NCBI RefSeq assembly: GCF_024972735.1
Contig: NZ_CP087723.1
Coordinates: 1,550,001 to 1,614,000, forward strand
Direction of reading: 5' to 3'
Length of the DNA: 64,000 nt
Source of the DNA: Halalkaliarchaeum sp. AArc-CO
Lineage (GTDB): Archaea; Halobacteriota; Halobacteria; Halobacteriales; Haloferacaceae
The notes below the pieces were generated by a model. It ran no database searches. It had not been told where the DNA came from and was given only the letters and a program-made list of their open reading frames with translations. This document shows, piece by piece, positions 55,723 to 64,000 of the stretch. The position numbers and the translations under genes were made by a program. Numbering within the stretch: the stretch's first letter is position 1; every line of letters starts with the position of its first letter.

Positions 55723-56395
55723 ACGTTGCTCTCAGCTCCAGCACACTGGAAATCAACTGGAAACCGACCCCCGTCGTCCGGCTGTTTTCCCTGGGCAGAT
55801 ATTTGGTAGTTATTAGCACACATATCCCCCGATACTCCGACAGACAAAATAAATGGTGGGTACGATACTAATATTCTGAAAACGCGAACTACTGCTGGTC
55901 GCTGTTAGGCGGGACGAGATTGCGGTGAGCGCTTTCGTGAACTACTCGATTGCCTACGATAAACGCTGACTCGGGACGGTTGATATAGTGATATGTAGTG
56001 TTTACATATTAAAAATAAATAATACATGTTATAGTACTGATAAGACTTCCACAATCTATCATTTTCGAATCCAATTAAATCTATTCACTAATAAATTAGA
56101 AAGTATAGCTCCCCCTGGCATCAGATCGGTGTCGGAACTGTTAGAACGTCATTTATCCTCATGCATCCTTACTCGGACCCGAGCTCACCTTCTTGTCGCT
56201 ACGACGACGGAGTTGTTGGGTGCCTGCATATAAATATCTGATAGATTATTATTCGTCAAACCTATCTATTATATTGTAGTTTATTAGTCGCAAGAATGTT
56301 GGATCGATACGGATCGAAATCCAGTCCAGTTTTCGAGACAGTGTGGTCTCCCTCCAGTCACCAACTTCATTAGACCCTTGTCCGTATCCCACTAC
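55723..56395. other. AT-rich intergenic region upstream of the corrinoid activator
   Basis: About 670 bases with no believable gene. The segment 55985-56290 is strikingly AT-rich (runs such as ATTAAAAATAAATAATAC and TATATAAATATCTGAT-like stretches) in a genome of high GC. An 81-codon frame at 55988-56233 exists only because of the low GC and lacks a family pattern. The region may hold long-range regulation of the downstream methyl-transfer genes or mark the edge of an acquired block. Confidence 0.6.
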
Positions 56396-58312
56396 ATGGC
56401 ACAAGAGCCTGTCGTGTCTTTCAGCCCGTGGGAAGTCAACGTCGAGACAGAATCCGGCCGAACACTGCTGGAAGTCGCAGACGGGATGAACGGACGAATC
56501 GAGGCTCTCTGTGGGGGTAACGGATTGTGTGGAACGTGTGCGGTACAGGTAACTGACGGTGCCGACAACCTCTCACCGATGACCGACGAGGAGCGAACGG
56601 TTCTGTCGGAAGAACAGTTGGCGGACGGGTATCGACTGGGCTGTCGTGCGGTAGTAGACGGTGACGTCTCGGTTCACGTCCCGGCGTCTTCACGAAGTGA
56701 GGGAGAGATCGTGATGACCGAGGGCGTAGAGATGGACGTCGATCTCGCTCCTCACGTCCGTCTGTACCGTCTGGAATTCGACGCGCCGACTCTGGAAGAC
56801 AACATTGCGGATCGCGAACGCGTCCTCGCAGCACTCGAACGTGACTACGGGATCGACGTCACGGAGGTGGATCGCCTCGCGATGACGGATCTCCCGTCTC
56901 GAATCCGCGAACGAGCGGACGACGGGACCCTCCAGTGTACCGCCATCGTGTACGACCGGGAGGAGCTGCTCTCGGTCGTCCCCGGGACTTCTCTGTCCGC
57001 ATACGGGCTGGCGGTCGACATCGGCACGACGACCCTTGCGGTGTATCTAATCGACCTCAAGAGCGGCGAAATCGTGAGCGTCAGTTCTCAGATCAATCCT
57101 CAGAGCAGACACGGCGGCGACATCATCAGTCGTGTTCAGCACTCCCAGAAGCCGGACGGACGGGAAGAACTACAGTCGGAAATCGTCGAGGCAGTAAACG
57201 AGAGCATTGCCGAGGTGACCGAGGAGGCGGACGTCGCAACCGAGGAGATCTACGACGCCGTATTCGTCGGGAACACCGCGATGCATCACCTGTTTCTCGG
57301 CATCGACGCGAGCGCGGTCGCGGCCAACCCATACGTGCCAGCGATGCAGTCGTCGACGGCAGTGAAAGCTCGGGAGTTAGGTCTCGATATCCACCGGTCG
57401 TCGTATCTGTCATGGCTTCCGATCATCGGCGGCTGGGTAGGTCCCGACTTCGTCGCGGACATCCTCGCTGCGGGACTGCTCGATCGGTCCGACACTGTGG
57501 TCTGTATCGACATCGGCACGAACGGCGAGATCGCGGTCTATGACGGCGAGCAGGCGTGGGTAGCCTCGGCTCCGGCCGGGCCAGCACTCGAAGGAGCGGA
57601 GATCTCTCACGGAATGCGAGCCAAACCCGGAGCGATCGAGGCGGTGTCACTCGACCCCGAAACCTGGGACCCCACTCTCGAGGTCATCGACGACGAGAAG
57701 CCGATCGGGATCTGTGGATCCGGGATCGTCGATGTCGTCGCCCAGCTGTTCCTCGTTGGGGCGATCAACCGTCGGGGACGCCTGGTCGATCCCGAGAACG
57801 GGCGTGGTCGCATCAGAGAGACGGACGGGGGCGACCGGGAGTTCGTCCTCGTCGAGGCCGACGCGTCGGGCAACGGATCCTCGATCGTGGTCTCCCAGGA
57901 GGACATCCGCGACATCCAGAACGCCAAGGCGGCCATCCAGACCGGCACGAGTGTTCTGCTTTCGGAGGCGGGAATCGAAGACGTCGATCGGCTGGTGATG
58001 GCCGGAGGCTTCGGCAACTATCTCGATCCCGAGTCTGCGAAGCTGCTCGGAATGTACCCACGGGTCGATGCGGATCGGGTGGAGTTCCTGGGTAACGCCG
58101 CCGGTCACGGAGCGATCTACGCCCTGCTCGACGGCGACGCCAGAGCCGAAGCCGAACGGATCGTCGAGGAGGTCGACTACGTCGAACTCGCCGCCTGGGA
58201 CGGGTTCCACGACGAGTTCATGGAAGCGATGTATCTCCCCCACCGGAACCTGGAGGCGTATCCCGAGGTGAAAGCCAGACTCGCTGACGTCGACGCCGAT
58301 CGCTCCCTGTGA
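56396..58312 (+). CDS. Reductive activator of corrinoid proteins (RACE/RamA-like, [2Fe-2S] plus ASKHA)
   Basis: ATP-dependent reductase that restores Co(II) of a corrinoid protein to the active Co(I) form. The 638 residues begin with a plant-type ferredoxin domain, ligands Cys39, Cys45, Cys48 and Cys83 (CGGNGLCGTC ... GCRAV). The ASKHA part includes AVDIGTTTLAVYLID near 210, GNTAMHHLFLG and CIDIGTNGEIAVYDG near 370, GICGSGIVD near 440, and ends VMAGGFGNYLDPESAKLLGM. The order is that of acetogen-type activators; RamA instead has C-terminal [4Fe-4S] clusters. ATG 56396 was chosen. It heads the methyl-transfer block. Confidence 0.9.
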   Translation: MAQEPVVSFSPWEVNVETESGRTLLEVADGMNGRIEALCGGNGLCGTCAVQVTDGADNLSPMTDEERTVLSEEQLADGYRLGCRAVVDGDVSVHVPASSRSEGEIVMTEGVEMDVDLAPHVRLYRLEFDAPTLEDNIADRERVLAALERDYGIDVTEVDRLAMTDLPSRIRERADDGTLQCTAIVYDREELLSVVPGTSLSAYGLAVDIGTTTLAVYLIDLKSGEIVSVSSQINPQSRHGGDIISRVQHSQKPDGREELQSEIVEAVNESIAEVTEEADVATEEIYDAVFVGNTAMHHLFLGIDASAVAANPYVPAMQSSTAVKARELGLDIHRSSYLSWLPIIGGWVGPDFVADILAAGLLDRSDTVVCIDIGTNGEIAVYDGEQAWVASAPAGPALEGAEISHGMRAKPGAIEAVSLDPETWDPTLEVIDDEKPIGICGSGIVDVVAQLFLVGAINRRGRLVDPENGRGRIRETDGGDREFVLVEADASGNGSSIVVSQEDIRDIQNAKAAIQTGTSVLLSEAGIEDVDRLVMAGGFGNYLDPESAKLLGMYPRVDADRVEFLGNAAGHGAIYALLDGDARAEAERIVEEVDYVELAAWDGFHDEFMEAMYLPHRNLEAYPEVKARLADVDADRSL

Positions 58313-58362: not shown

Positions 58363-59661
58363 CTAACAGTACTTTCTGGGTGCCTCGATCATCGCCCGCA
58401 CGTTTTCTGGCTTCGCCTCGTCCATCGCGACGCCGGGCGCCAGGATGAACCCGTCGGGGCCGACGTCTTCGATGAGTTCACGACAGTATGCGTCGACGTC
58501 CTCCGGCTCTTTGGTGTTGAGAAGCGAGCTGTGGACGTTGCCCGCGATCGCTGCCCGGTCGCCAAGCGCCTCCTTCGCGTCGCGCATGTCGGTCCGGTCG
58601 AACTGCCAGACGACGTTCCCGTCCGGCTGATCGGCGATCGCCTCGAGTCGGTCGTCGTAGCTCCCCTCCGCGAACAGCCAGGGGACGAGTCCGGCGTCGG
58701 TGAGTGCGTCGATCACATCCCGGAGCTGCGGCCAGTAGAACGTCCGGAACTCCTCGTCCGACATGAACCCGTCGGCCCCCTTGTGCAGGGGAATAAACAC
58801 CAACGGATTCCCGGCGGCCTGCGCCGAGCGGATCCCCATCTCGATCATCGTCGGGGTGAGACTGTCGACGGCTTCCTCGAGCACGTCGGGTTGCCGCTTG
58901 AGGTCCATCGCGATCCCTTTTGTTCCCCGAAGTGTATCCCCGAGAGTGTCGTAGGGTGCTTTGGTGAAGCCACCGAACGACCGGGGATACCCGGATCGAA
59001 TGACCTCCTCGACGGTTCCGCCGACGATCTCTTGCCATCGAAGCGCCTCCTCGCCGGCGTCCATGAGCGTCTCGAGGGCCTCCTGGACGTCGGGCAATCC
59101 GAACGGGATCGCCATGAAGTGAATGCTCGGAATCTCGACGAGATCGGTGAAGTGTGGTAGCTTCCGGAACGGTTCGAGCGCACCGACGATTTCCGGGATG
59201 TAGTGGCGTAGCCAGAAGTCGGTCGGATCCTGAAGGAGCTGTTCGTAGTCGTCCGGACCCATGTATTCCTTTTCGAGCGCCTGATATCCCGTATCGGGGG
59301 ACGCGCCGTCCCCCGGCCAGGCGTACAGGTTGTAATCCAGCATCTCGAGCATCTTCGCTGACGGGAGCAACGCGGCCGACAGCTGGTGGCAGTCGGGCTC
59401 GAGATCGTACACTGTCTCCTCGAGCGCAGCGGCGAGCGCTGCCGCGTCGTTCATCGCTGTTTCAGGCGTGATCCCCGCATGAAACACCGGATAGAAGGTG
59501 GCGCTGAGCGCAGTGGGGATCCGATCCGGCTCTTCGCCCCGAATGGCGGCCGCGAACCGGCCCGTGCGTTCCCGGTAGGCGTCCCGTGCCGCCTCGTCCT
59601 CGAAGTCGATTCCCACTCCGTTCTCCCAGTTCTCCAGTGTGACGTCGTGTTCCGGTTTCAT
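58363..59661 (-). CDS. UroD-family (MtaA/MtoB-like fold) methyltransferase 1
   Basis: Protein of 432 residues with the uroporphyrinogen decarboxylase fold used by corrinoid methyltransferases. It has PDRIPTALSATF near residue 50, and F330-A-E-G (FAEGSYDDRLE) where MtaA/MtbA carry the zinc ligands HxCG; the third zinc cysteine (GC) is GVAM near the end. GNVHSSLLNTKEPEDV follows the UroD-like pattern GNVxxxxLxxxxxxEV. Therefore it is not a classical methylcobamide:CoM methyltransferase nor a decarboxylase of heme synthesis. It is best seen as a substrate:corrinoid methyltransferase or a partner; substrate unknown. Confidence 0.8.
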   Translation of the reverse strand: MKPEHDVTLENWENGVGIDFEDEAARDAYRERTGRFAAAIRGEEPDRIPTALSATFYPVFHAGITPETAMNDAAALAAALEETVYDLEPDCHQLSAALLPSAKMLEMLDYNLYAWPGDGASPDTGYQALEKEYMGPDDYEQLLQDPTDFWLRHYIPEIVGALEPFRKLPHFTDLVEIPSIHFMAIPFGLPDVQEALETLMDAGEEALRWQEIVGGTVEEVIRSGYPRSFGGFTKAPYDTLGDTLRGTKGIAMDLKRQPDVLEEAVDSLTPTMIEMGIRSAQAAGNPLVFIPLHKGADGFMSDEEFRTFYWPQLRDVIDALTDAGLVPWLFAEGSYDDRLEAIADQPDGNVVWQFDRTDMRDAKEALGDRAAIAGNVHSSLLNTKEPEDVDAYCRELIEDVGPDGFILAPGVAMDEAKPENVRAMIEAPRKYC

Positions 59662-59783
59662 GAGTTGCTGTCGTCGAGTCGGGTACGTTCGGTAACTCCG
59701 CGGTTCGGAGAGATGACATCCCAATCCGACAGTCGATCGTCGTTCATGGTAGTTCCCGACAGTTGTTCTTTGTTGGGGCGGAA

Positions 59784-59793
59784 CTTATACTTT
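59784..59793 (-). promoter_or_regulatory. AAAGTATAAG element upstream of UroD-like gene 1
   Basis: On the minus strand AAAGTATAAG, with a TATA-like core, lies about 123-132 bases before the ATG at 59661. If used, it would leave a leader of about 100 bases. The same AAAGTATAA core occurs upstream of the island's MFS transporter. Confidence 0.35.
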
Positions 59794-59941
59794 CACCTGA
59801 CGTTTTTACTGCAAGACTGGTGACTGAGAGCTGATCTCTCGACTGATGGGTCCATCCAGCGTGAAACGGCCGATCACGTCGGGTCTGCCGGACGAGGGGG
59901 CTACCGGACGACGACCCGAAACGAAGAGGAAAAACCCGATC

Positions 59942-61216
59942 CTACTTCACGGAGTCGACCAGCGCGTGGATGTTCTCCGCGGGCGCCCGGTAGACGGTCG
60001 CACCGGGGGTGAGGATGAAGCCGTCGGGGCCGACGTCCTCGATAAGCCCCTCACAGTACTCCGTGACCTTCTCGGGCGAGCCGGTCTTCAGGACGCCAGT
60101 GGGAACGTTGCCGGCGACGGCCGCCTGATCCCCGAGCACGTCCTTCGCGCGACGGATATCTGTCTGATCGAAGTGCCAGACGACGTTTCCGCCCTCGGGA
60201 TGGTCGTCGGCGAGGATCTCCAGCCGGTCGTCGTAGCTCCCTTCCGCGAACATCCACGGGACGTACCCCTCCTCGAGTACGCCTTCCATCACTTCCTTCA
60301 GAGTTGGCCAGTAGAACTCCCGGAAGTCGTCTTTCGACATGAACGAGTCGGCACCCTTGTGGAGCACGAACATGACGATGGGAACGCCGGTCGATTTCGG
60401 CCCGCCGACTGCGAGGTCGGTCATCATCGGAACGAGCGCCTCCGATGCCTGTTTGAGTTTTTCGGGTCGCTTGCGCATGTCGATCATCGTCTTTCGGGTG
60501 CCACGGAGGGTGTCGCCGATCATGTCGAACGGTGCCTTCGCGTACCCCCCGGAGGCCGAGGGATACCCCTTCGCGTTTGCCTCTCCCGACACGGAGCCGA
60601 CCTCCATCTGCCACCGGACGGCTTCGTCGCCGGCTTCCTTCAGCGTGTCCAGCGCGCTCTGGACCTCCGGGTCCCCGAACGACAGCATCATCGCGTTCGC
60701 GAACGGGAGTTCCGACGCGGTCGCGAGCTGTGGGATCTTCGAGAGCCCTTCCGCCTCCCCGAACACGCGCGGGAGATACTTGCGGAGGAAGTACGCGTCA
60801 GGGTTCTCGATGATGTCGTCGTACTCGTCGGGCTTGAGATACTCGTCTTCGACCGCCTGGTAGGCGACGTCTTCCTCCAGACCGTCACCCGGCCAGTTGT
60901 ACAGCTTGTAATCGAGGATGTCGAAGATCTTCCCCGACGGGATCGGCATCACCGGATTGTTGTCCGGGTCGAACGCGTCGATGAACTCTCGATAGGCGCG
61001 TTTCGCCTTTTCGCCGTCGTACATGAGCTCTTCGAACGTGACGTCCGCGAAGTGGCCCGCGAGGTAGCCGGCCCTGACCTGCACCGGAACCCGATCCGGT
61101 TCCCCACGTTCGATCGCGGTCTTCATGCGGCCAGCACGGGCCTTGTACGCTTCCTCGGCCTCTTCGCTCTCGAATTCGATACCTTCGCCTGATGCCCACG
61201 ACTCGAGGCTTACCAT
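59942..61216 (-). CDS. UroD-family (MtaA/MtoB-like fold) methyltransferase 2
   Basis: Protein of 424 residues, paralogous to the previous gene: both have FAEGSYDDRLE (here F323), a following VVW(Q/H)FD(R/Q)TD, GNV (GNVPTGVLKTGSPEKV) and a C-terminal YCEGLIEDVGPDGFIL. The zinc motif is again missing (GATV in place of GC). The N-terminus PDRVPVQVRAGY resembles the PDRIPTALSATF of paralogue 1. Two divergent copies beside one corrinoid protein suggest two substrates, or a heterodimer. A TATA-like CTAAATGG lies 26-33 bases upstream of the ATG. Confidence 0.82.
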   Translation of the reverse strand: MVSLESWASGEGIEFESEEAEEAYKARAGRMKTAIERGEPDRVPVQVRAGYLAGHFADVTFEELMYDGEKAKRAYREFIDAFDPDNNPVMPIPSGKIFDILDYKLYNWPGDGLEEDVAYQAVEDEYLKPDEYDDIIENPDAYFLRKYLPRVFGEAEGLSKIPQLATASELPFANAMMLSFGDPEVQSALDTLKEAGDEAVRWQMEVGSVSGEANAKGYPSASGGYAKAPFDMIGDTLRGTRKTMIDMRKRPEKLKQASEALVPMMTDLAVGGPKSTGVPIVMFVLHKGADSFMSKDDFREFYWPTLKEVMEGVLEEGYVPWMFAEGSYDDRLEILADDHPEGGNVVWHFDQTDIRRAKDVLGDQAAVAGNVPTGVLKTGSPEKVTEYCEGLIEDVGPDGFILTPGATVYRAPAENIHALVDSVK

Positions 61217-61294: not shown

Positions 61295-62692
61295 TTACTT
61301 GCCCTTCGCCTTGCTGACTCGGAGTCCGTACAACGACAGCCCAGTAGAGAGGAGCCGCAACGCGACTGCGAGCGCGAGTGCGAGCGCGTATCCTCCCCAG
61401 AGGTCGTTGATGTACGCCATCACGGTCGGGCCGAGCACGATCCCGGTCCCGACGGAGAAGGCGTTGATGTAGCTCATCACCATGCCGATGTTCTTCCGGC
61501 CGAACAGATGTGGAACCGCGGCGTAATGGACAGCAGGTTCGCCGCCGAAGAAGAAGAACATCACTGCACCGACACCGAGAATGAGATACAGGTTCGTGTA
61601 ACCGAAGTAGAACACCCCGATCAGCACCGCAGGGATACCGTAAATGAACGGGAGCGTCCGCCAGGGGCCGCCGAGCCGGTCCATCAGGTCGCCCCAGACG
61701 TACGCACCGACCGCAGTGAGCAGCCCAGTGAGCGACAGGAAGGTCGGAACTAGCCAATCGGCAACGTACGCTTCACTGTACCCACCGATGGTCAGTCCCT
61801 CGATCATGATCGTGGAGATGTTCTGGAGCAGGCCCATGTACGAGAAGGCCGCGCCCATCATTGCGAAGTAGAGGATCCAGAACTCCTTCATCTTCACCGC
61901 CTCCCCGATCGTAACCCCCTCCTCTTCGATCCGGTCTTCACCGTCGTCTTCCGCTCCGGAATCCTCTTCGGAAGCCGCGTCCGAGGACATCGCCTCGTCG
62001 GTTTCCCCGTCATCGGCCCCGTCGTCGTCCTCGTCGTCGAGAGACGCCGAAAGCACACCGGAATCGATCTCCTCTTGGGTCGGGTTCCGCCACAGTACGA
62101 CGCCGACGATGACGACCACGGCCGCACCGACGATACCGATCAGCAGGAACAGGTCGTAGCCGAACCCAATGTAAGCGATCAGGCCCGCAACGATCGGCGC
62201 GAGGGCAACGCGTCCCAGCGGGTCGCCCATGTTGATGATACCCATTGCCCGACCCATTCTGTCGCCCCGGTACCACCTCGACAGTGTGGGAACTGCGGTT
62301 CCAGCGGTCATTCCCACCCCGATACCGGTGAGGAAGCTACCCGCGTAGTAGAACCACTGCGCCTCCGCCCAGCTGTCGATCGCGAACATCGACGCGAGCA
62401 GCAACATCCCGACGAAGAACGACGCAGCCGCGATCGCAAACGGAATTTTCGGCGTTTCCAGGTAATCCAGGATCGTTCCAGCGATCGGCGGCCCGATCAC
62501 CATCACACCGACACCGACGGCGGAGGCACCCGCCGCGAGAGGTGCGACCGTATCTAGCCCGTAAACGTTCTGTAGATACGGATAAAACAGTGACCAGATC
62601 CCGAGATACGCCAGTATGAATCGCAAACCGGTGCCTGATGCCGGATAGAACCAGCGTCTATCTGGACCTACTCCTCGCTTAAGTATGGACAT
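61295..62692 (-). CDS. OFA-like MFS transporter with a long acidic loop
   Basis: Membrane carrier of 465 residues with twelve helices: N-terminal half about 18-200, C-terminal half about 270-455. The central cytoplasmic loop (about 205-265) is extremely acidic (DDEDDDGADDGETDEAM, SEEDSGAEDDGEDRIEEEG). The helix sequences (FILAYLGIWSLFYPYLQNVYGL) recall the oxalate/formate antiporter group, which carries carboxylates. Sited between the methyltransferase genes, it probably imports the methylated substrate or exports the demethylated product (inference). Confidence 0.82.
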   Translation of the reverse strand: MSILKRGVGPDRRWFYPASGTGLRFILAYLGIWSLFYPYLQNVYGLDTVAPLAAGASAVGVGVMVIGPPIAGTILDYLETPKIPFAIAAASFFVGMLLLASMFAIDSWAEAQWFYYAGSFLTGIGVGMTAGTAVPTLSRWYRGDRMGRAMGIINMGDPLGRVALAPIVAGLIAYIGFGYDLFLLIGIVGAAVVVIVGVVLWRNPTQEEIDSGVLSASLDDEDDDGADDGETDEAMSSDAASEEDSGAEDDGEDRIEEEGVTIGEAVKMKEFWILYFAMMGAAFSYMGLLQNISTIMIEGLTIGGYSEAYVADWLVPTFLSLTGLLTAVGAYVWGDLMDRLGGPWRTLPFIYGIPAVLIGVFYFGYTNLYLILGVGAVMFFFFGGEPAVHYAAVPHLFGRKNIGMVMSYINAFSVGTGIVLGPTVMAYINDLWGGYALALALAVALRLLSTGLSLYGLRVSKAKGK

Positions 62693-62799: not shown

Positions 62800-63648
62800 C
62801 TATCGGCCGCGGTAATAGCCGAGATACCGCGTCGCGTAGTCGTCGCGACCCATCGCGAGGTCGGCGACCAGCGCGGTTTCCTTCGCGGATTCGGCGTGAA
62901 TGATCGGCACGTTCAGTCCGGCGTTGACCGCCATCGCGAAGAAGACGTTGTTGATCAGTTCCCTGTTGGGGAGTTCGAAGGAGACGTTGCTCAGACCGAG
63001 CGTGATGTTGTTGCCCAGTTCGTCGCGGACTTTCTCCATGGTGTCGAGAGTGACGCGACCGGCCTCCGAATCGGTAGACAGCGGAAGCGCCGCACAGTCG
63101 ACGATCACGTCCTCTTCAGGAATATCGTGTTCGGCCGCGCGTGCGAGAATCGTTTCGGCGATCTGGAACCTCGTTTCCGCGTCGTTCGGGATCCCGTCGT
63201 CGTCCATCGTCAGGCCGATAACAGCCGTCTCGTACTCGGCTACGAGCGGAAGGATCGTTTCGAGCGACTCCTGTTCACCGTTGACCGAATTGACGACTGG
63301 TTTACCGGGACAAACCTGGAGCGCCTCCTCGAGGGCGTCGGCGTCCTCGTAGTTCGTGTCGATCACGATCGGCACGTCCACCGCGTCCGCAACGGTTTCG
63401 ACCGCCTTCGGGAGGATTTCGTCTTTGTCTACCCCGTCGGCGTCGACGTTGACGTCGATCAGGTCTGCACCGTTTTCGACCTGTTCCACTGCCAGTTCGC
63501 GTACCGGCTCCATGTTCCCCTCGGAAAGCGCCGCAGCCAGATCGGAATCCGGTCGCGGATTGATGCGTTCGCCGATGAGATGAACCTGTTCGGTTCGGTC
63601 GAGAGTGATCGGGTCGCCGGCACCTTGTACGGTTGTCTGTAGTGACAT
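62800..63648 (-). CDS. Pterin-binding corrinoid methyltransferase (AcsE/MtvA/MtgA-like)
   Basis: TIM barrel of 282 residues of the pterin-binding family. Recognisable are GERINPRPDSD near residue 27, GADLIDVNVDADG, VIDTNYEDADAL, VVNSVNGEQES, GLTMDDDGIP, VDCAALPLSTD and LGLSNVSFELPNR, the last with the asparagine placed to assist N5 of the pterin as in MeTr. It should transfer a methyl group between a corrinoid protein and tetrahydrofolate, the pterin haloarchaea use. It is divergent from the corrinoid-protein gene, with 268 bases between them. Confidence 0.85.
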   Translation of the reverse strand: MSLQTTVQGAGDPITLDRTEQVHLIGERINPRPDSDLAAALSEGNMEPVRELAVEQVENGADLIDVNVDADGVDKDEILPKAVETVADAVDVPIVIDTNYEDADALEEALQVCPGKPVVNSVNGEQESLETILPLVAEYETAVIGLTMDDDGIPNDAETRFQIAETILARAAEHDIPEEDVIVDCAALPLSTDSEAGRVTLDTMEKVRDELGNNITLGLSNVSFELPNRELINNVFFAMAVNAGLNVPIIHAESAKETALVADLAMGRDDYATRYLGYYRGR

Positions 63649-63916: not shown

Positions 63917-64000
63917 ATGTCAGACGAATTTGTGCAAGCGCTGGCTGATCTCGAGGAGGAGAAAGCAGTAGAAATGGCCGAAGAACGTCTGGAGGCCGGC
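63917..64000 (+). CDS. Probable corrinoid protein, N-terminus only (truncated by window edge)
   Basis: Begins MSDEFVQALADLEEEKAVEM, followed by AEERLEAG; only 28 codons are visible. This beginning matches the N-terminal helical bundle (cap) of methyltransferase corrinoid proteins (B12-binding, MtbC/MtvC-like), where a helix opening with alternating hydrophobics and a LEEEKAVEMAEERLEAG-like pattern is common. The context of activator, UroD-fold and pterin methyltransferases strongly supports it. The cobalamin-binding DxHxxG motif would lie beyond the window, so I cannot confirm it. Confidence 0.72.
   Translation, partial: MSDEFVQALADLEEEKAVEMAEERLEAG

Follow-up and report, generated by a model that had tools for sequence, protein, structure and literature searches.

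Two UroD-type proteins of Halalkaliarchaeum sp. AArc-CO are probable methyltransferase I proteins for corrinoid-dependent demethylation, with methyl ethers as the likeliest substrates

A 64,000 nucleotide stretch of the Halalkaliarchaeum sp. AArc-CO genome (contig NZ_CP087723.1, positions 1,550,001 to 1,614,000; "the window" below, coordinates prefixed C2 being used for features beyond it) encodes two paralogous proteins of the uroporphyrinogen decarboxylase (UroD) superfamily that do not have the zinc ligands of the coenzyme M methyltransferases, and the question is what reaction such proteins catalyze. The first, UroD1, lies at 58363..59661 on the minus strand and has 432 amino acids from the likelier ATG (M22); its open frame, 58363-59724(-), would encode 453 amino acids from an upstream TTG at 59724, and the ATG is preferred because it fits the relatives better. 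UroD2 occupies 59942..61216 on the same strand (424 amino acids) and is 46% identical to UroD1 over its length. The initial annotation counted two such paralogues, but the genome has three, the third (UroD3) being encoded at C2:1646351-1647667. We are confident that UroD1 and UroD2 are corrinoid-dependent methyltransferase I (MTI) proteins and moderately confident that their substrates are methyl ethers; taken as a whole, the reading that they are the MTI subunits of a corrinoid-dependent demethylation, most likely of methyl ethers, seems to us a probable one.

Pfam finds URO-D alone in each protein, above its cut-off and in the C-terminal half, and both have the UroD-type barrel with a long N-terminal extension (about 420–440 amino acids) that is expected of a corrinoid-dependent MTI of this superfamily. 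AlphaFold2 models built from the family alignment have predicted local distance difference test (pLDDT) values of 94.4 (UroD1) and 95.2 (UroD2). Among solved structures the UroD1 model matches M. mazei MtaA best (4ay7; Z 27.2, 306 aligned residues, identity 21%), and UroD and MetE structures come next. The best PDB sequence match of both proteins is CdmB, the chloromethane methyltransferase of Acetobacterium dehalogenans (PDB 9rui; E 3.6e-32 and 3e-33 for UroD1 and UroD2, respectively), which aligns with them in three stretches; CdmB did not appear in the structural match list, and its entries probably postdate the library. Scores of UroD1 and UroD2 against the NCBIfam MtaA-type models are far below the cut-offs.

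MtaA and MtbA, the soluble coenzyme M methyltransferases, share the UroD-type barrel with the window proteins and differ from them in carrying a His-Cys-Cys zinc site, and the aligned M. mazei MtaA reads LHICGN at the first ligand site and APGCGI at the second. The initial annotation had reported FAEG at the first of these places and GVAM or GATV at the second; re-translation bears this out, and its MtaA reference was right. In a multiple alignment that took in MtaA-type proteins from Moorella, the HxCG Cys aligns with Glu353 of UroD1 and Glu325 of UroD2, in agreement with the proposal that a Glu takes its place, and the HxCG His aligns with Phe (Phe351 in UroD1). The second Cys corresponds to Val432 of UroD1, within GVAM (58423..58434, minus strand), and to Ala of UroD2, within GATV (59993..60004, minus strand). 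The Glu belongs to FAEGSYDDRLE (58642..58674 in UroD1 and 60218..60250 in UroD2, both minus strand), which is identical at 11 of 11 positions in proteins only 46% identical overall and is therefore their best-conserved stretch and not a product of chance.

A genome scan found 80 further relatives, at 43–50% identity apart from one haloarchaeal sequence at 76%; the hosts are mostly anaerobes and include Moorella, Desulfofundulus, Lokiarchaeota, Dehalococcoidia, Anaerolineae, Spirochaetota, Desulfobacterales and the halophilic Halobacteroidaceae. In the family alignment Glu353, Gly354, Arg359 and Leu360 of the shared motif are each found in 84/84 members, and the same is true of LHKGAD (Leu313 to Asp318; minus strand, 58771..58788 in UroD1 and 60347..60364 in UroD2), which contains the invariant His314 (His286 in UroD2), and of Asp379 (Asp353 in UroD2), the last residue of DRTD (58588..58599) and DQTD (60158..60169), also on the minus strand. 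The second-site residue is mostly Ala, Val, Ser or Thr across the 84 members. No Cys is universally conserved among them, and the only Cys of UroD2 and the only Cys of UroD3 do not occupy the same place; a Cys-based zinc site elsewhere in the protein is ruled out. With Glu in 84/84 and no universal Cys, nothing has been lost in this genome. The ligands described as lost from the two proteins are indeed absent, but the idea of a loss does not stand, and as judged from these sequences the absence of the zinc site is common to the whole branch.

In the UroD1 model, which is numbered from M22 (TTG-start numbering minus 21), three barrel strands end at residues 292, 331 and 354 and are followed by His293, Glu332 and Asp355, with Asp379 (Asp358 of the model) the fourth residue past its strand; in UroD2 the strands end at 285, 324 and 349 and the next residues are His286, Glu325 and Asp350. 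The invariant His and Glu are the first residues past their strands in both proteins, and His, Glu and Asp stand at the ends of three successive strands, as they do in the O-demethylase MtoB discussed below. These modeled positions are the C-terminal strand ends, the active-site side of a TIM barrel, and the expectation of the initial annotation that the Glu would be at the barrel mouth is upheld by both models, where it directly follows a barrel strand.

The two genes are encoded with a corrinoid protein, a methyltransferase II and an activator, as expected of corrinoid-dependent MTIs. The minus-strand order is methyltransferase II (62800..63648), a major facilitator superfamily (MFS) transporter recognized by Pfam (61295..62692) that adjoins UroD2, then UroD2 and UroD1, with gaps of 107, 78 and 280 bases. 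The methyltransferase II is of the pterin-binding methyl-tetrahydrofolate (THF):corrinoid type (MtvA/AcsE-like, PF00809; 253.9 bits against PRK07535, for which the cut-off is 259), a type that suits THF. A plus-strand gene at 56378..58312 for a RACo-type reductive activator of corrinoid protein (Pfam Fer2 and RACo linker, middle and C-terminal domains) converges on the UroD1 side, and on the other side the B12-binding corrinoid protein diverges from 63917, with only its start in the window (63917..64000, plus strand; it continues to C2:1614573 and has 218 amino acids), followed by a DUF1638 gene at C2:1614656-1615486. In Phaeobacter, DUF1638 and a RamA-like protein have been linked to B12 reactivation (PMC5764234). 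Of 80 homologous loci, 74 encode the same type of corrinoid protein, as a rule immediately upstream; methyltransferase II is present in 35 of the loci, RACo in 17 and DUF1638 in 10. Other recurrent neighbors in these genomes (aldehyde ferredoxin oxidoreductase, FAD oxidases, MoaF and alcohol dehydrogenase) are too mixed for a substrate call.

The closest CHARACTERISED systems are the mto locus of A. fulgidus and CdmB, which were compared with the window proteins by identity, tree and the three residues. The mto locus, AF_0006-0013, was described for growth on methoxylated aromatics (PMC8359953), and the MtoB of Methermicoccus shengliensis has been assayed as an O-demethylase (PMC8630106). An Archaeoglobus locus of the phylum sample (L172), recognized by gene order and not by name and situated close to the start of its contig, encodes in turn a corrinoid protein, a UroD-type protein, an MFS transporter, MtrH, RACo, a second corrinoid protein, a second UroD-type protein and a second MFS transporter, an order that fits the mto locus. 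Identities between the window and the A. fulgidus proteins are 45% for the corrinoid protein, 30% for MtoB, 34% over 448 amino acids for the MFS protein and 36% for the activator. Both systems have the corrinoid protein, RACo-type activator and MFS neighbors, A. fulgidus also has two MtoB copies, and MtoB has the same fold and places His, Glu and Asp identically in the barrel; these three are found in 15/15 MtoB-branch proteins of Archaeoglobus and relatives. The gene content around the pair matches the Archaeoglobus mto locus in all but the type of methyltransferase II. We read the pair as the MTI of a corrinoid, THF-linked system, and the earlier placement of both proteins closer to aryl-O-demethylase-like members is likely. 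The differences are that MtoA is of the MtrH type, which uses tetrahydromethanopterin, where the window has the pterin-binding, THF type, and that MtoB has His and LHLNE where the window proteins have Arg359 and LHKGAD. By published description the bacterial phenyl-methyl-ether O-demethylases MtvB, OdmB and VdmB resemble the window system in component architecture, THF as acceptor and a RACo-type activator (PMC13222342, PMC8630106).

CdmB also has the UroD fold with N-terminal extensions and no MtaA-type Cys ligands, but has Trp, Gln and Asn for His, Glu and Asp. It is free of zinc, keeps its activity in the presence of EDTA, and uses haloalkanes and not methoxy-aromatics (PMC13222342), so that His, Glu and Asp may be what ether cleavage needs. 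This agrees with a published rule by which carboxylates or non-ligands stand in for one Cys ligand or for both in UroD-type O-methyltransferases (PMC10418091). In trees the window proteins, CdmB and MtoB are apart from MtaA and HemE (support 100/100 in one tree and 100/99 in another), and CdmB is sister to MtoB (99/95) with the window proteins outside that pair; UroD1 and UroD2 belong neither to the MtoB clade nor to that of CdmB, and neither has the CdmB residues Trp, Gln and Asn. The simplest reading of these sequences would be that the three residues are ancestral and were dropped by CdmB. We note a further archaeal relative (G634:C2:124560-125882; loci L148 and L173) with 36% identity, which keeps the Glu and His and is missing Asp379; it adjoins a corrinoid protein and a substrate-binding protein and branches, with weak support, between the family and MtoB.

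On the ether reading, UroD1 and UroD2 would each demethylate a substrate of its own, the likeliest candidate being a methyl ether, for example a methoxylated aromatic acid, that MFS transporters import. The corrinoid protein encoded from 63917 would accept the methyl group on its Co(I), and the pterin-binding methyltransferase would transfer it on to THF, with RACo, perhaps together with the DUF1638 protein, re-reducing Co(II). At the C-terminal rim of the barrel, His314, Glu353 and Asp379 would replace the MtaA zinc site; acting on their own or by way of a hard metal ion, they may polarize the leaving oxygen or protonate it. From THF the methyl could be oxidized through MTHFR, FolD, formate-THF ligase (FTHFS) and formate-dehydrogenase-like gene products, with sulfur respiration as a likely sink. 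Genes for these steps are present in a cluster at C2:2245001-2264000, which encodes MTHFR, an MtrH-like protein, a molybdopterin oxidoreductase (formate-dehydrogenase-like), FTHFS, MttB, FolD and a corrinoid protein, and a second RACo gene (C2 2248282) accompanies them; the MttB-MTHFR-FolD-FTHFS cluster and this second RACo suggest that methyl groups can ride THF and be oxidized. By contrast with these two RACo genes, a search for RACo in the genome of the laboratory species Haloferax volcanii gave no match. In the genome paper on Halodesulfurarchaeum formicicum the THF enzymes are presented as a source of C1 units, and corrinoids go unmentioned (PMC5437934).

Several points weigh against ethers as the substrates. 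The assignment draws mainly on neighborhood and three residues, the proteins are only about 30% identical to MtoB and belong to a wider branch of their own, MtoB does not share Arg359 or HKGAD, and the 34% MFS match could be general for the transporter class; the activity of any close family member on ethers is a prediction from sequence. The zinc O-demethylase motif E-X14-E-X20-H is found in 0/3 paralogues and 1/84 family members. Veratrole and vanillate O-demethylases are reported to contain zinc and that of Moorella to be zinc-free (PMC13222342), and because these related enzymes differ in this way the metal cannot be called in either direction.

The best surviving alternative keeps the same corrinoid MTI system and gives it a non-ether substrate, a methylated amine, methylated osmolyte or methyl ester. 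Hypersaline habitats are rich in betaines, branched-chain amino acid-type ABC genes are present in the vicinity, and in a congener (G015) an intact enolase-superfamily gene lies just upstream of UroD3 and its corrinoid protein. Its relatives in the PDB include 2pmq/4h2h, which carry no annotation beyond mandelate racemase/muconate lactonizing enzyme and act on hydroxyproline betaine. But the genome encodes four distinct MttB-family proteins, of the family that ordinarily handles quaternary amines (one in the C2:2245001-2264000 cluster and three elsewhere), the UroD-type enzymes characterized in the cited papers act on ethers, haloalkanes and thiols and not on amines, and His-Glu-Asp agrees with MtoB; such a substrate is possible but unlikely. 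An apparent TGA inside a fourth MttB gene proved to be merely a stop upstream of the start codon, with no recoding. The enolase-superfamily gene of the congener encodes 367 amino acids; in the window genome only the first 102 residues are kept, and this remnant adjoins a transposase-like 453 amino acid frame.

That the proteins are haloalkane (chloromethane) dehalogenases like CdmB is improbable, even with CdmB as the best PDB sequence match and a cdmBCA gene set of the same kind (PMC13222342): CdmB has none of the three family-invariant residues (His, Glu and Asp), it groups with MtoB outside the window branch, and chloromethane needs no transporter, whereas an MFS gene lies beside UroD2 and beside its ortholog in Halodesulfurarchaeum. 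The reverse direction, methylation of an acceptor such as a thiol from methyl-corrinoid, as by MtaA with coenzyme M or by split methionine synthase, would accord with MtaA as top structural match, with the methyl-THF-type methyltransferase II and with the RamA-like and DUF1638 proteins that split methionine synthase also uses; we nevertheless think it quite improbable, in that the thiol-binding His-Cys-Cys site is absent from the family and three paralogues with several transporters suit catabolism. Uroporphyrinogen decarboxylase activity can for practical purposes be dismissed despite the Pfam URO-D match, as UroD1 and UroD2 are linked to corrinoid genes and score 29.1 and 26.2 bits with the NCBIfam hemE model (cut-off 302.95), and a full-length HemE is encoded at C2:407139 (E 2e-108, against about 1e-20 for UroD1 and UroD2).

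Within corrinoid-dependent demethylation, the earlier proposal of two substrates or a heterodimer can be narrowed. An obligate UroD1-UroD2 heterodimer is unlikely because the congener G015 has UroD1 and UroD3 without UroD2, and CdmB, a relative of solved structure, forms homodimers (PMC13222342). The two Halodesulfurarchaeum genomes (G158 and G183) have orthologs of UroD1, UroD2 and UroD3 in a single island, roughly 16 kb long, that also encodes two corrinoid proteins, a single methyltransferase II, RACo and several transporters (and DUF1638 in G158), the UroD2 ortholog adjoining that of the window MFS gene; separate substrates sharing a corrinoid pool are thus plausible, and a better reading than an obligate heterodimer. 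UroD3 of the window genome has its own corrinoid protein gene, which overlaps the UroD3 start (region C2:1646351-1650536). The haloarchaeal types form one group, UroD2 branching first and then UroD1 with UroD3, with support of 100/95 in one tree and only 88/79 in another. They are present in 4 of 392 genomes of the order and 2 of 96 sampled genera, namely the window's own genus and the sulfur-reducing Halodesulfurarchaeum.

UroD-type corrinoid demethylation is known from acetogens, methanogens and Archaeoglobus, and our literature search turned up no haloarchaeal example; the kind of enzyme is familiar, and what is new is the haloarchaeal host and the three-residue contrast with CdmB. A more far-reaching combination, which we put forward tentatively, is that sulfur-respiring haloarchaea live in part on ether methyl groups at salt saturation by means of three MTIs sharing a corrinoid pool, that a branch-wide His-Glu-Asp set activates the C-O bond with or without a hard metal, and that the loss of those three residues turned CdmB into a zinc-free haloalkane enzyme. 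If the demethylation system works as proposed here, hypersaline anoxic sediments have an unrecognized methyl-group route. Comparison of MtoB, the window family and CdmB also makes ether cleavage without a thiol-type zinc site a three-residue mutational question.

Two kinds of neighboring gene are possible clues to substrates: MoaF-type proteins, encoded at L040:245-1030 and at four other homologous loci, and aldehyde ferredoxin oxidoreductases, encoded near the methyltransferases at 11 homologous loci. In the window genome two aldehyde ferredoxin oxidoreductase-like frames and small MoaD-like frames lie at C2:1661363-1666708, 14–20 kb past UroD3. Finally, C2:1622315-1623010 encodes a 231 amino acid protein with no Pfam match that is conserved in the Halodesulfurarchaeum island and presumably resembles the methionine-synthase activation domain, and a similar-looking protein family recurs at 12 homologous loci.

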